Source of the DNA: Aerophototrophica crusticola | GTDB taxonomy: Bacteria > Pseudomonadota > Alphaproteobacteria > Azospirillales > Azospirillaceae | Assembly: GCA_001939945.1 (NCBI GenBank) | Contig: MOEB01000001.1 | Location: forward strand, 451,595-515,594 | Direction: 5' to 3' | DNA length: 64,000 nt | In this document: one piece after another, positions 773 to 8,052 of the stretch | Numbering within the stretch: the stretch's first letter is position 1 | Layout of the letters: every line of letters begins with the position of its first letter | The notes under the pieces: generated by a model | Seen by the model: only the letters and a program-made list of their open reading frames with translations | The model's database searches: none | What the model was told of the DNA's origin: nothing | Program-made: the position numbers and the translations under genes

Positions 773-868
773 ATGTCGCTCTATGACAAGCTCAGCATCG
801 TCGTCATCGGCTTCGGCTCTTTCGTGGGCATGAAGTACGGCCTCTACCTGCTCTGGGCCTCCAATTAA
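773..868 (+). CDS. 31-residue hydrophobic small protein
   Basis: A 31-codon frame beginning MSLYDKLSIVV and ending LYLLWASN. Residues 8-28 are hydrophobic enough for one membrane helix, with Lys6 and Lys21 as the main charges. The codons are almost all G/C-ending, which supports real coding in this GC-rich genome. A purine-rich AGTGGGA lies about 5 bases before the ATG. Its TAA overlaps the TAA of the convergent kinase gene through a shared TTAA. A longer in-frame extension to 530 reads as non-coding. No family is recognised, so it is an unnamed small membrane protein. Confidence 0.5.
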   Translation: MSLYDKLSIVVIGFGSFVGMKYGLYLLWASN

Positions 869-3546
869 GGGGTGGGGGCGAGCGGCACGGTGAACCGGAA
901 CGTCGCACCTTGGCCGGGCAGGCTCTCCACCCAGATCCGGCCGCCCATGTGCTCCACCAGCCGGCGACAGATGGCCAGGCCCAGGCCCGTGCCCTGGGGC
1001 TTGCCGGCCTGGGCGTCGCTGACCTGGCGGAATCGGTCGAACACCTCCTCCTGGTACTCCGGCGGGATGCCCGGCCCATTGTCGGCCACGGACAGGCGCA
1101 GCATCCCGTCCCCGTCCCGCTCCACCGACAGCACCACCCGCCCGCTCCCCTGGGGCACGAACTTCACCGCGTTGGACAGCAGGTTCAGCACCACTTGGGC
1201 CAGCCGGTCCGCGTCCCCCAGAACCAGCGGCAGGGCAGGGGGGACGGACAACTCCAGCGCCACCCCCCGCTCCCGGTAGAGGGCCTGGGTGGCATCCGCC
1301 GCGTCGCGGGCGATCCTTGCCAGATCCACCGGCCCGATGCTCCAGTCCAAGGCCCCGGCCTCGATCTTCGCCATGTCCAGCACCTGGTTGATCAGGCGGG
1401 TCAGGCGCTCGCTCTCCTTGATGATGGTGCCCAGGAACTCCTGCCGCTGCTCCTCCGGCAGGTCCGGGGTGTCATAGAGGATTTCCGACAGGGCGCGCAC
1501 GCTGGTCAGGGGCGTGCGCAGCTCGTGGGTGATGGTGGACAGGAACTCGTCCTTCATCCGGTCCAGCTCGCGCAGCCGGTCATTCGCCGCCGACAGGGCC
1601 GCCGTGGCGGCCTCCAGCTCGGCGCTCTTCCTTTCCAGGCGCCGGCTGTATTCGATCACGCCGCTGGTCTCATCCAGCATGCGCAGGATGGTGGCCCGCC
1701 CCACCGCACCCCCGCCCAGGACGGAGGCCAGCGCCACCCGGGCGGAGGCCGCGCCGATGGCCCCCGCCAGAAGCCGCTCCGCCCGCCGCACCAGACCGGC
1801 GTCGGCCAGGGCCTGCGGCGGCGGGCAACTCTCCCCCGGCCCGGCCAGCCAGGCGCGTCCGGGCCCCAGGAAGCGGGCCAGCAGGCCCTCCAGCTCCGCC
1901 ACCGTGGCGGTGCCGCGCCAGTCGCCGGGTTCCTCCTCCCCGTCGCCCAGCGCCTCTACGAAGGCGGGTCCTTGGGCGCGCGACCCCTCATCCTCGGGCC
2001 CCAGCACCGACAGGCCCAGATACAGCCCGACATTGGCCACCAGGCTCCAGAACAGGCTGTGGGCCAAGGGGGAAAGGCCCTGGACGCCGAACAGCGCCTC
2101 CGGTCGCAACGCCCCGATTCCCCACGGCCCCGCCAGCACCAGCCTGCTTTCCGGCACCAGGCTCGGCAGCAGCAGGGTATAGGCCCAGACCAGGGTACCA
2201 CCCGCGATCCCGGCGATGGCGCCCTGGCGCGTGCCCCCGATCCAGAACAGGCCGCCCAGCAAGGCCGGGGCGAACTGGGCCACGGCGGCGAAGCTGACCA
2301 GGCCGATGCTCACCAGCCCCGCCGTGCCGCCCGCCGCCTGGACATACAGCGCCCCCAGCAGCATCAGCCCGACGATGGCGGCCCGCCGCACCATCAGGGT
2401 CAGCCGGCCCAGGTCGCGCACCCCCTCCAGCGCGCCCTTGCCGCGGAACAGCAGGGGCAGGACCAGGTCGTTGGACACCATGGTGGCCAGGGCCACCGTC
2501 TCCACGATGATCATTCCGGTGCCGGCCGACAGGCCGCCGATGAAGGCCAGCAGGGCCAAGCCTTCCCACCCCGCCGCCAGGGGCAAGCCCAGCACGAACA
2601 TGTCCGCGGGCACGTTCCCCGCCGGCAGCAGCAGCAGCCCCGCCAGGGCCAGCGGCAGGACGAACAGGTTGATCAGCAGCAGGTACAGGGGGAACAGCCA
2701 TTGGGCGGTGTGCAGGTGCCGTTCGTCCGTGTTCTCCACCACCATCACCTGGAACTGCCGCGGCAGGCACAGGGTGGCGGCCATGGCCAGCAGCAAGCCC
2801 GTCACCCAGGCGCCCCCCTCCAGGGCCGGCGCGCCGGTCAGCAGGCCTGCCGTGCGCGGCACCTCCGCGGCCCGCTCCAGCAACGCCCCCGGCCCCCCGG
2901 CCAGGCCCCAGACCACCGCCGCCCCCACCAGCAGGAAGGCCACAAGCTTCACCACCGCCTCGAAGGCGATGGCGGTGACCAGTCCGGGATGGTGCTCCGT
3001 CGCGTCGATGCTGCGGGTGCCGAAGATGATGGCGAACAGGGCCATCAGCAGGGCGATCCAAAGGCCGGTGTCCGCCAACCCGCCCGGCGCCGCCCCACCG
3101 GTCAGCAGCTCGAACCCCGCCGACATGGCCTTGAGCTGCAAGGCGATGTAGGGCACCAGCCCCACCACCGCCACGCACGCCACCAGCCCGCCCAATGCCT
3201 GGCTTCGGCCATAACGGGCAGCGATGAAGTCGGCGATGGAGGTGGAGCGCTGCCGTCGCGCCACCCGCAGGATCTTCGCCAGCAGCAGCGGCGCCAGCGC
3301 CATCACCAGCGTCGGGCCCAGATAGGTGGGCAGGAACCCCACCCCCGCCTCCGCCGCCCGGCCGACGCTGCCATAGAAGGTCCAGGCCGTGCAGTAGACG
3401 GCAAGGCTCAGGGCATACACAACCGGCCCGCCCACCGCCTTGCCCGCCGCCGCCCGCCGGTCCGCCCCATAGGCCAGGGCGAACAGGCCCAGCAGGTAGG
3501 CTAGGCTGACCCCCGCCACCAGCCAGACGGGCAAGGTATTGCTCAC
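865..3546 (-). CDS. CbrA-like sensor: sodium/solute symporter domain fused to histidine kinase
   Basis: 893-residue membrane sensor. Residues 1 to about 500 are a sodium/solute-symporter (SSS) fold with many membrane segments, including PRQFQVMVVEN, as in CbrA. A STAC-type linker (AELEGLLARFLGP) and a short coiled coil follow. The kinase core has H box TITHELRTPL (His near 675), N box NLLSNAVKF, and G boxes DNGPGIP and GTGLGL, so it looks active. The GTG start at 3546 is chosen because it overlaps the TGA of the upstream small gene by 4 bp (GTGA), implying translational coupling. In pseudomonads CbrA controls carbon/nitrogen use. The same role here is inference, as no NtrC-type CbrB is adjacent. 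Confidence 0.85.
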   Translation of the reverse strand: MSNTLPVWLVAGVSLAYLLGLFALAYGADRRAAAGKAVGGPVVYALSLAVYCTAWTFYGSVGRAAEAGVGFLPTYLGPTLVMALAPLLLAKILRVARRQRSTSIADFIAARYGRSQALGGLVACVAVVGLVPYIALQLKAMSAGFELLTGGAAPGGLADTGLWIALLMALFAIIFGTRSIDATEHHPGLVTAIAFEAVVKLVAFLLVGAAVVWGLAGGPGALLERAAEVPRTAGLLTGAPALEGGAWVTGLLLAMAATLCLPRQFQVMVVENTDERHLHTAQWLFPLYLLLINLFVLPLALAGLLLLPAGNVPADMFVLGLPLAAGWEGLALLAFIGGLSAGTGMIIVETVALATMVSNDLVLPLLFRGKGALEGVRDLGRLTLMVRRAAIVGLMLLGALYVQAAGGTAGLVSIGLVSFAAVAQFAPALLGGLFWIGGTRQGAIAGIAGGTLVWAYTLLLPSLVPESRLVLAGPWGIGALRPEALFGVQGLSPLAHSLFWSLVANVGLYLGLSVLGPEDEGSRAQGPAFVEALGDGEEEPGDWRGTATVAELEGLLARFLGPGRAWLAGPGESCPPPQALADAGLVRRAERLLAGAIGAASARVALASVLGGGAVGRATILRMLDETSGVIEYSRRLERKSAELEAATAALSAANDRLRELDRMKDEFLSTITHELRTPLTSVRALSEILYDTPDLPEEQRQEFLGTIIKESERLTRLINQVLDMAKIEAGALDWSIGPVDLARIARDAADATQALYRERGVALELSVPPALPLVLGDADRLAQVVLNLLSNAVKFVPQGSGRVVLSVERDGDGMLRLSVADNGPGIPPEYQEEVFDRFRQVSDAQAGKPQGTGLGLAICRRLVEHMGGRIWVESLPGQGATFRFTVPLAPTP

Positions 3547-3734
3547 CGCCCCCTCCCGGCCCAGGCCAGCAGCAGGACCAGCAACGCCCAGGCCCCGAAC
3601 AGCCAGGCCAGCAGGCCTGCCCCGGCTTCCTGCCCGAACCCCGACAGCAGGGGCGGGCTGACCATCACGCAGCCTGCCAGGAACAACCCCAGCATCCGCG
3701 CCCGGTGCCGCGCTTCCCGCCGACGCCGGGGCAT
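3543..3734 (-). CDS. small membrane protein upstream of the SSS-kinase (CbrX-like position)
   Basis: 63 residues: an Arg-rich N-terminus (MPRRRREARHRAR) followed by two hydrophobic helices, about 15-32 and 40-58, and a short basic tail. It starts one base inside the stop of the exonuclease gene (TGATG) and overlaps the kinase start by 4 bp, so all three are probably translated together. Pseudomonas cbrA is preceded by a small translationally coupled membrane ORF, cbrX. Position and size match that, but sequence similarity cannot be asserted here. It may help insert or stabilise the SSS sensor. Confidence 0.7.
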   Translation of the reverse strand: MPRRRREARHRARMLGLFLAGCVMVSPPLLSGFGQEAGAGLLAWLFGAWALLVLLLAWAGRGR

Positions 3735-5818
3735 CAGAAGGCGCGCTCCCGCGCGTGCAGCTCCACCGCCATGTTGGACCGGCGGATGGCGTCATCCAGG
3801 GTGACGATCCCCTGGGCCGCCAGGGCGTCCAGGAACCTCAGGAAGATGGCCGCGGTGACCAGGCTGTCCCCCAGGGCGGAGTGGCGGTCCACCACCTCCA
3901 CCCCCAGGCTGGCGGCGATGCCGTCAAGGCTGTGTGTCCCGTCCTCCCCCTGGAGTTGCCGGGACAGGACCATGGTGTCCAGCACGGGCGTGTCGAATTT
4001 CACCCCCGCCGCCTTCTGCTTCATCTTCAGGAATTTCAGGTCGAAGGCCGCGTTGTGCGCCACCAGCACGGCCCCGCCGACAAAGGCGCGGAACTGCTTC
4101 AACACCTGTTCCGGCGGCGGCGCGTCGGCCACCATGGCATCGGTGATGCCGTGGATGGCGGTGCTGGCCGCGGGGATGGCGCGGCCGGGGTTGACCAGGC
4201 TCTGGAAGGTCTCCCCCGTCAGGATGCGGCCATTGACGATGCGCACCCCGGCCACGGACACCAGCTCGTCCCCCTGGCTGGGGGACAGGCCCGTCGTCTC
4301 CGTGTCGAAGACCACATAGGACAGGGTCTTCAACGGCATCCTGGCCAGCGCGTCCTCGGGCAGGGGCTGGTGCAGCAGGTCGAAGTCGAAAAACTCCGGC
4401 CGCGGCGCCGGGGCGGCCTTGCGGCGGCCGTGGGGCTCCTTGGGCAGGGGCAGGGGCACCCGGAGCCGGGACAACCCCTCGCCACAGCGCTCCGACCACA
4501 GGTCCGCGTTGTGGTAATCCAGGATGTCCGCCACGGTCAGGGCGGCCAAAGCGTCGGCCAGGCTGTCGGCCCGCCAGCCCTCCACCGATGCCGCCGCCAG
4601 CGGCTCCCCCTTCCAGCAGAGGTCGGCATAGACGAAGCGGTCGTCATGGGTGGCGGCGATGTCCAGCTCCCGCTGCCCTGTCGCCTCCGCCACCCGCTGG
4701 GCCAGCCGGGACAGCAGCAGTGCCAGGCCGTAGCTGTCCCCATGCAGCCAGCAGGGCAGGCCGGTGCAGGTCAGGGCCGGCCCCCCCTGGCGGGCGCAGC
4801 GCTCCGCCACCAGGGCGAACAGGTTGCCGGAAATGATGTCAGCCATGGGCCAGGCGGCGGTGATGCCGGCACGGTACTCCGTCGTGATGCGGGCCAGGGT
4901 GTCCTGCAACTGCCCGGACCCGGCCAGGATCACCTGCTCGAAGCCCTGCCGCTCTTCCGGCGACAGCTCCGGGTGCTCCGCCAACATCTCCGCCGCGGCG
5001 GACAGGTTCGCCAGGGGGCCGCGCACATCCTCCGTGGCGCTGCGCAGCAGCCGGTCGCGGGCGGCCAGGGACGCCATCTCCTCCGTCGCGTCCTCCAGGG
5101 TCACCACATAGCCGGTGACCGACTCGTCGGTGCCCAGGATGGCGGCCATCCGCCCTTGCAGCAGCCGCCCCTCCGCCGTGCCGGCCACGAAGCCGGCGGT
5201 GGTGCCATCCCGGTGCTCCTTGTGCCGGCCCTCGGCGATGCGCCGGGTCAGCCGGTCCAGGGTGTGCCGCACCGGCTCCGCCGTCACCAGCTCCACCAGC
5301 GGCCGGCCCAGGCCCAGGGCGGCGGCCTGGGGCAGCAGCGCCCGCGCCTCCTCATTGTATAGCAGCACCTGGTGGCGCAGGTTGCAGACCAGGACACCCT
5401 GGTGCAGGTCCCGCAGCAGGGCCGCCAGCCGGCCGGACTGTTCCTCCGCCCGCCGGGTCGCCTCCGCCACGGTGCGGTCGGTGTCCGCCTTCAGGGCCGC
5501 CACCTTAGCCGCCAGCTCCGCCACCAGGGCGGCCAGGGGGCCGATGGCCCCATAGTTCTCCGGCGGCAGCCCGCCCTTGCCGTCGCTCATCAGCAGCACC
5601 GGCACCTGGGCCGCCAGGCGTTTGCCGGGATTGATGACCCCCAGCCGTACCAGCCCCCAGACCAGCGCCACGGCGATCCCCGCCACGGCGGCAGAGACGA
5701 AGGCCATGGTCAGAACCGGGTCCGGCGACCCCCGCACCACCCAGGGCAGGGAAAGGCACAAGGCCGCGGCGCCCAACGCGATGAACAGGGCGACCCGCCC
5801 CAGCCGGGCCGCGTCCAT
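3734..5818 (-). CDS. membrane pseudo-histidine-kinase fused to DnaQ-like 3'-5' exonuclease
   Basis: 694 residues. Two membrane helices (about 8-28 and 36-58) are followed by a coiled coil, a PAS-like domain (about 130-250), a HisKA-like helix pair (255-315), a degraded ATPase-like region (325-457) and a DEDDh exonuclease (500-665). The H-box equivalent, residues 262-269, reads TEDVRGPL, so the phosphoacceptor His is Glu263. No N or G boxes are recognisable. The exonuclease is intact: Asp505 and Glu507 in FDTETTGL, Asp593 in HNAAFD, His646 and Asp651 in RHSALGD. The ATG at 5818 avoids overlap with the receiver gene. Exonuclease genes are known next to SSS transporters and kinases; the physiological substrate is unknown. 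Confidence 0.85.
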   Translation of the reverse strand: MDAARLGRVALFIALGAAALCLSLPWVVRGSPDPVLTMAFVSAAVAGIAVALVWGLVRLGVINPGKRLAAQVPVLLMSDGKGGLPPENYGAIGPLAALVAELAAKVAALKADTDRTVAEATRRAEEQSGRLAALLRDLHQGVLVCNLRHQVLLYNEEARALLPQAAALGLGRPLVELVTAEPVRHTLDRLTRRIAEGRHKEHRDGTTAGFVAGTAEGRLLQGRMAAILGTDESVTGYVVTLEDATEEMASLAARDRLLRSATEDVRGPLANLSAAAEMLAEHPELSPEERQGFEQVILAGSGQLQDTLARITTEYRAGITAAWPMADIISGNLFALVAERCARQGGPALTCTGLPCWLHGDSYGLALLLSRLAQRVAEATGQRELDIAATHDDRFVYADLCWKGEPLAAASVEGWRADSLADALAALTVADILDYHNADLWSERCGEGLSRLRVPLPLPKEPHGRRKAAPAPRPEFFDFDLLHQPLPEDALARMPLKTLSYVVFDTETTGLSPSQGDELVSVAGVRIVNGRILTGETFQSLVNPGRAIPAASTAIHGITDAMVADAPPPEQVLKQFRAFVGGAVLVAHNAAFDLKFLKMKQKAAGVKFDTPVLDTMVLSRQLQGEDGTHSLDGIAASLGVEVVDRHSALGDSLVTAAIFLRFLDALAAQGIVTLDDAIRRSNMAVELHARERAF

Positions 5819-5843: not shown

Positions 5844-6221
5844 TCACGGCCCACCCCCGGCCAGGTGGCGGCGAACCGTCTCAACCAGGTCGCGGGTGGA
5901 GAAGGGCTTGGTGATGTAGTCGGTGGCGCCCAGGGCCAAGCCCTTCTGCTTCTCCACCTCCCGGCTCTTGGCGGTCAGCATCAGCACGGGGATGGTCGCC
6001 CAGCCCGGCTCTGCCCGTATGGCCTGGCACAGGTCGAACCCGTCCCGCCCCGGCATCATGGCGTCCAGCAGCACCAGGTCCGGCCGCTCCTCCAGCATGG
6101 CGGGGATCACCGCGGACCCGTCCCGCACCACCCGCACCCGGTAGCCCGCCTTCTTCAGCAGGAACTCCAGGGACAGGACGATGCTCGGCTCGTCGTCGGC
6201 GACCAGGATGCTGTGCGACAT
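5844..6221 (-). CDS. single-domain (CheY-like) response regulator
   Basis: 125-residue receiver with no output domain. Acidic pocket Asp9/Asp10 (LVADDEPS), phosphoacceptor Asp53 (LVLLDAMMPG), the Thr in LMLTAKS and the Lys in ITKPF are all present, so it should be phosphorylatable. The start MSHSILVADD is chosen over an upstream ATG, which would add 34 non-conserved residues. It is first of a four-gene set, 25 bp ahead of the pseudo-kinase/exonuclease. The distal SSS-kinase is the likely phosphodonor. Output must be through protein interaction, possibly with the degenerate kinase or exonuclease; that is inference. Confidence 0.9.
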   Translation of the reverse strand: MSHSILVADDEPSIVLSLEFLLKKAGYRVRVVRDGSAVIPAMLEERPDLVLLDAMMPGRDGFDLCQAIRAEPGWATIPVLMLTAKSREVEKQKGLALGATDYITKPFSTRDLVETVRRHLAGGGP

Positions 6222-7897: not shown

Positions 7898-8052
7898 TCG
7901 TTTCCCCCACCTTTGCAGCCCCTTGTACGCCCGCGGACGCGGGAGGGGCAAGCCGAAGGGTGTGACGATTCAAGTGTCGAGCCGTCGCAGGGGTCGGGCG
8001 GGCTCCGCTTGAACGTGTCTACGGACGGCGAAGGGTAACCCCGAAAAGCGAA

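Follow-up and report, generated by a model that had tools for sequence, protein, structure and literature searches.

A histidine kinase-like module without kinase residues, fused to a DEDDh exonuclease, is a possible docking site for a response regulator

We have analysed a stretch of 64,000 nucleotides from Aerophototrophica crusticola (the window), which encodes a membrane protein composed of a PAS domain, a histidine kinase-like module and a DEDDh exonuclease, as shown in Table 1. The kinase-like module is a conserved non-kinase: its kinase fold is recognised, while the phospho-His, the N box and the G1 Asp are missing across the family. From the distribution of its DHp hairpin among related genomes, the dead kinase probably serves to dock a response regulator, by which a nutrient sensor encoded nearby may switch the nuclease. 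The parts of the protein are already known. Their combination, which we propose to be a receiver-sensing pseudokinase like DivL but with a nuclease as output, did not turn up in the open literature searched (the PubMed Central open subset), where we saw no description of an exonuclease joined to a kinase-like module or of an exonuclease–DUF294 fusion. A preliminary description of this gene gave its coordinates correctly and its residue numbering exactly (D505, E507, D593, H646, D651 and E263); the strand, which it did not give, is minus.

Table 1. Positions of the fusion gene, its domains, its neighbours and related single-chain fusions. Positions refer to the window unless a locus is named.
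Feature	Position	Strand	Evidence
Fusion protein, 694 aa: membrane helices, PAS, pseudo-histidine-kinase, linker motif, DEDDh exonuclease	3734..5818	minus	
PAS domain, residues 130-243	5090..5431	minus	Pfam PAS 7.2e-7
Pseudo-DHp hairpin, residues 245-322; Glu263 at the phosphoacceptor position (5030-5032)	4853..5086	minus	AlphaFold2 model, hhalign register
Degenerate ATPase-like layer, residues 326-456; D361, W402 and H436 highly conserved	4451..4843	minus	Model
Linker motif RPEFFDFDL, residues 473-481	4376..4402	minus	
DEDDh exonuclease domain, residues 500-693	3740..4321	minus	Pfam RNase_T 7.9e-37; PDB 2p1j 2.2e-29
Receiver-only response regulator, 125 aa, ATG 6221	5844..6221	minus	Pfam Response_reg 6.7e-30; start codon taken from the sequence
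Small membrane ORF, 63 aa	3543..3734	minus	Sequence
Intact sensor kinase, transporter-like N-terminus (CbrA/CrbS type)	865..3546	minus	HisKA 1e-20, HATPase_c 1.3e-34
Single-chain exonuclease, two CBS, DUF294, DUF294_C	L165:6034-8148, L166:7308-9767, L167:6000-8117		

Pfam identifies RNase_T (residues 502–659, 7.9e-37) and PAS (residues 130–243, 7.2e-7) in the fusion protein; HisKA matches residues 253–309 at 8e-5, under its curated cut-off, and HATPase_c was unmatched. The AlphaFold2 model (mean pLDDT 84.8, pTM 0.54) places two N-terminal helices before the PAS domain, followed by DHp-like helices at 245–281 and 287–322 and an alpha/beta layer at 326–456, which a low-confidence linker separates from the nuclease. 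The two N-terminal helices are hydrophobic and are followed by a coil, in agreement with the membrane anchor originally proposed. Comparison of the model with the PDB using Foldseek returned WalK (6.7e-19), further histidine kinases, DivL (2.1e-9) and the exonucleases of PolC and epsilon, and among the 50 BFVD fold matches listed there were none but generic kinases or exonucleases. Using hhalign, the family profile aligns with the kinase domain of the intact sensor kinase encoded next to the fusion gene cluster's small ORF, with a probability of 97.5 and an E value of 6.9e-12. The model, Foldseek and hhalign thus all place an overall histidine kinase fold within the fusion protein. We note that Cys145 of the PAS domain (window numbering) is Cys in 27/27 members of a narrower alignment, as against 58/91 of a wider set.

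In the hhalign register, with residue pairing read off the alignment, E263 falls on the phospho-His, W402 falls on the G1-box Asp, and the N box is without its Asn. These losses are general. Among the 98 members with a complete DHp (profile occupancy of at least 0.7), the alignment places no His at positions 262–264. A pattern search of a 91-row set, which does not include L034 and L083, found an HxLRxP-like H box in none, an N box in none and a G1-like pattern in one, whereas in the neighbouring kinases, which served as a control, the H box was found in 42/44, the N box in 41/44 and G1 in 35/44. HisKA was reached at E ≤ 0.01 by 4 of 27 family members, and HATPase_c was absent from the Pfam match list. 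Homologues with an intact His and N and G boxes were searched for among the relatives, and none was found. The loss of His and ATP boxes described for the single protein therefore extends to the family, and the fold matches, the absent kinase residues and the retained nuclease residues together bear out the description of a pseudo-kinase fused to an intact nuclease. Glu263 itself is not the conserved feature: this position is E in 47, D in 22, R in 9 and other residues in 20 of the 98 members, and its variability rules out a phosphomimetic Glu as the key feature. The residues that do persist are W402 at the G1 Asp position (96/98) and H436 (98/98).

The exonuclease is intact. The catalytic D-E-D-H-D set is present in the fusion protein and is retained by alignment in 152/153 members; the row of the remaining one, L258, is misaligned and its motifs are visible by eye, so that the claim that every catalytic residue is kept holds for all 153 members examined. 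The fold is that of the DEDDh group, with a TM-score of 0.84–0.85 to epsilon (Foldseek, normalised on the target), and its nearest solved relatives are the exonuclease domains of PolC and epsilon. The linker ahead of it is almost as constant, with F479 in 91/91 and D478 in 90/91 members, and is kept as [FYH]DF even in members without the kinase-like part. A role in anti-phage defence was considered and set aside: PADLOC returns only a generic DEDDh model and PDC-S48, both on the nuclease part.

The occurrence of the family was analysed in several sets of genomes. A search of genome contigs confirmed 33 loci, comprising 32 family members, from Rhodospirillales/Acetobacterales-like, Burkholderiales and Desulfobacterota records, and one unrelated Flavobacterium exonuclease. 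This set is biased because the linker motif (RPEFFDFD) was among its seed peptides; the sets from the class and from the phylum, described next, were obtained without that seed. The full-length form occurs in 12/385 genomes of an even sample of the class (E ≤ 1.6e-62), in which two congeners of the window's organism were without it. When the phylum was sampled evenly, a linker–nuclease profile matched 53/398 genomes (E ≤ 1e-45); of the 53 loci retrieved, 50 encode linker-nucleases whose N-terminal part is long, and three encode exonuclease–DUF294 fusions. Within the family f23, 72/149 genera are carriers (E ≤ 1e-60), of which 60 were retrieved in addition to four obtained earlier. The resulting set of 153 loci, 60 of them from f23, omits L036 (a non-member), L029 and L035 (broken frame), L033 (contig end) and the fusions L165–L167. 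Shorter forms are found in several lineages, either TM–nuclease (L030) or TM–PAS–nuclease (L034, L083, L084 and many of f23). One short member, L263, was scored as keeping the ATPase layer while being too short to hold it, and is probably misaligned. Since members without any kinase-like module occur, the nuclease with its linker is the constant core of the family, and the kinase-like part is optional.

In the window the fusion gene lies within a compact cluster. The gene for the receiver-only regulator ends 25 bases before it, and on its other side a 63-residue ORF overlaps both the stop of the nuclease (TGATG) and the start of the transporter-kinase (GTGA; the kinase starts with GTG). This ORF has no match in Pfam, and related small ORFs were found at nine loci. 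Residues 13–463 of the transporter-kinase match PDB 10ed_A, a 606-residue ‘histidine kinase’ that may be the transporter part of CbrA, with an E value of 2e-76. Pfam finds no SSF domain in the window's transporter-kinase; that of a relative (L013) gives a weak SSF match, below the cut-off (E 0.0023). A short way upstream of the cluster, at 7951–7127, is a 274-residue protein in which an Hpt domain precedes a weakly matched receiver-like one.

The wider neighbourhood of the family points to carbon uptake and to a DUF294 protein. Within 6 kb of the 153 loci we counted DUF294 at 130, an SSF symporter at 111 and an intact transporter-kinase at 44. Within 5 kb of 67 loci plus the window, the counts are receiver 53, DUF294 51, SSF symporter 38, small membrane ORF 37, transporter-kinase 35, DUF4212 16 and acetyl-CoA synthetase 15. 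At two loci (L078 and L082) the genes for symporter, DUF294, small membrane protein, receiver and fusion protein are contiguous, and in some Burkholderiales (L014, L026, L027 and L031) the fusion-family gene follows PEP synthase. The window's own genome has DUF294 genes on two other contigs, one of them beside an SSF symporter. At three loci of relatives (L078:6762-7283, L082:10210-10740 and L040:8593-9111), a conserved membrane protein of about 170 residues, unmatched in Pfam, is encoded between DUF294 and the receiver.

DUF294_C is present in 164/398 genomes, and in all 53 of the nuclease carriers, in two of which the sole match is the fusion itself; the hypergeometric probability, calculated without correction for the tree, is 1.1e-23. 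The nucleotidyltransferase motif DQD is found in 69 of 70 DUF294 neighbours (52 by a strict pattern, and 17 of the 18 others in fragments). The association also exists within single chains (Table 1), and two of these fusions, L166 and L167, adjoin genes for SSF and DUF4212 symporters. When the 30 best-scoring DUF294_C loci, which are not a random sample, were inspected, an exonuclease was adjacent in 28, three being of the present family and 25 standalone proteins of about 230 residues. In the standalone exonucleases beside DUF294 (within L168–L197), the third acidic residue is Glu in 22/25 and Asp in 3/25; because of this replacement they may differ in activity from the membrane form. Overall, the gene neighbourhood suggests a link with a GlnD/GlnE-like nucleotidyltransferase rather than with a nucleotide messenger. 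The protein could instead be an RNA-decay enzyme that trims the transcripts of carbon metabolism, in which case its link to DUF294 would be co-regulation only. DEDDh folds include RNases, and such a role was speculated for P. putida pp_0353, the loss of which slows growth on pyruvate (available text of PMC9927547); this explanation is nevertheless doubtful, as it does not account for the exonuclease–CBS–DUF294 fusions or for the adjacency at 28 of the best 30 DUF294_C loci.

If the DHp hairpin docks a receiver, then it is expected to persist where a receiver is encoded beside it. We compared the 151 loci that have at least 450 bases of upstream sequence. Where the DHp is complete, the gene immediately upstream and on the same strand encodes a receiver-only regulator in 87/98 loci, against 1/53 where the DHp is eroded or absent; when the occupancy threshold is lowered to 0.5, the figures are 88/107 and 0/44. 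Fisher's test gives 2.5e-28 and 2.3e-23 respectively, with loci counted without tree correction. The starts of the receivers were set by alignment, which adds L079, L082 (a weak match, 38 bits), L131 and L153 to a cruder count of 84/98 against 0/53. The single exception, L153, is borderline, with a DHp occupancy of 0.68 and a receiver present, and there are 11 complete-DHp loci without an adjacent receiver. On a tree of the nuclease domain there are three to four independent pairs on supported branches, or 8–11 if all branches are counted. In the supported pairs the receiver changes in the same way as the DHp in about 2.4–2.5 on average and never in the opposite way, and a sign test is unable to reach 0.05 because the independent pairs are too few.

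The order of genes and domains is receiver–TM–PAS–DHp–ATPase layer–nuclease, and since the TM–PAS segment between the receiver and the DHp survives, a single deletion does not explain their joint loss. Within one genus (g338), L119 and L122 are without both DHp and receiver and keep the ATPase-like layer, while L118 and L123 have both. In a further member of this genus, L124, the DHp stretch resembles out-of-frame sequence and no receiver is nearby, indicating either a compensated frameshift or an assembly error. The 60 upstream receivers of relatives that were aligned all retain the phospho-Asp and the conserved Lys (60/60 for each).

DHp hairpins dimerise, and the kinase remnant might merely dimerise and tether a constitutive nuclease to the membrane; members without the module (L030 and the forms of about 470 residues) do still have their membrane helices. 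A passive scaffold of this kind fails to predict the near restriction of the DHp to loci with an adjacent receiver gene, or the strong conservation of W402 and H436, and we consider it unlikely. Of the ‘signalling scaffold’ in the preliminary description, the pseudo-kinase and the membrane anchor stand; the scaffold itself is more plausibly a switch on which a receiver docks, since the DHp is rarely retained where no receiver-only regulator is encoded alongside. An ordinary replication or repair exonuclease that became fused by chance would fit the closest solved relatives, the PolC and epsilon domains; this is very improbable, being disfavoured by a gene context of carbon uptake and sensing and by the presence in the genome of another DnaQ-like protein (C296). 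Finally, an active kinase that uses another residue, for which the E or D at position 263 in 69/98 members could in principle accept phosphate, is to all intents ruled out by the missing His, N and G boxes and by the Trp at the G1 Asp position.

Starting from the observed anatomy, residue loss and retention, gene linkage and DHp–receiver association, we infer phosphotransfer, docking, switching, substrate and physiology as follows. The transporter-kinase encoded downstream would read the organic-acid state and phosphorylate the receiver-only regulator encoded upstream. The regulator would dock on the pseudo-DHp hairpin, where it would be read jointly with the PAS domain, and docking would shift the attached exonuclease between states at the membrane; the kinase-like module would thus be an input domain and not an enzyme. 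The nuclease would cleave a phosphodiester that arises or is consumed in the pathway to which DUF294 belongs, in the uptake of monocarboxylates (acetate or pyruvate), and candidate substrates are RNA, as speculated in the available text of PMC9927547, or a nucleotidyl mark made by DUF294. We put at about an even chance this reading of the protein, in which it senses a receiver as DivL does, responds through its nuclease, takes its signal from the CbrA/CrbS-type transporter-kinase next to it and acts in a DUF294 pathway. The docking step is directly testable, because there are natural versions in which receiver and docking part have both been lost.

GlnD combines the functions of writer, eraser and sensor in one protein. 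A comparable pair may be envisaged here, in which DUF294 would attach a nucleotidyl mark to a protein (for instance the monocarboxylate symporter or its partner) or to the 3' end of an RNA, and the DEDDh domain would remove this mark under the control of the transporter-kinase acting through the dead kinase. This proposal draws on the exonuclease–DUF294 fusions, on the co-occurrence, on the placing of DUF294_C in one substrate-binding group with GlnD/GlnE (available text of PMC3710099) and on the precedent of RNase Z, a ribonuclease that removes AMP from proteins (available text of PMC12663964); it is speculative, and we think it improbable as it stands. If it were true, the exonuclease–CBS–DUF294 single proteins would be a self-contained version of the system. 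Like GlnD, these fusions add a phosphodiesterase-type domain and, in CBS, sensors; unlike GlnD, they carry a DEDDh domain where GlnD has an HD domain.

To our knowledge, few bacterial pseudo-histidine-kinases have a known role. The closest comparison is DivL of Caulobacter, which likewise has PAS and a kinase fold with the His replaced, and whose structure (4q20) is matched by our model. DivL binds DivK~P, with phospho-specificity provided by PAS, and its partner is a single-domain receiver (available text of PMC5361649), whereas here a receiver is the candidate partner, suggested by gene linkage and co-loss. The output of the fusion protein is a covalently attached nuclease rather than another kinase, and the fusion does not have the Tyr. 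A device of the DivL kind seems here to act on an enzyme within its own polypeptide, and to do so in numerous species.

The system also provides a way of finding out what the DUF294 nucleotidyltransferase and exonucleases of the pp_0353 type do when acetate and pyruvate are used. According to the available text of PMC9927547, pp_0353 is a standalone RNase_T exonuclease under MxtR/ErdR and shares its operon with pp_0354, a CBS protein; pp_0353 is needed for normal growth on pyruvate and not on acetate, and deletion of pp_0354 gives no defect on either. It resembles the fusion protein in lying beside a CBS/DUF294-type gene and in its connection to acetate and pyruvate metabolism. It differs in that its description, in the same available text, mentions no membrane, PAS or kinase-like part, and by that description, rather than by sequence, it would belong with the standalone exonuclease group. 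The small ORF and kinase have the layout of cbrX-cbrA (available text of PMC13022988): as in CbrX–CbrA/CrbS, a small membrane ORF overlaps the transporter-kinase gene translationally and is placed before it as CbrX is before CbrA. In contrast to the cluster in the window, CbrA works with CbrB, and the available portions of the texts on CbrA, CrbS and RpuS name no exonuclease.
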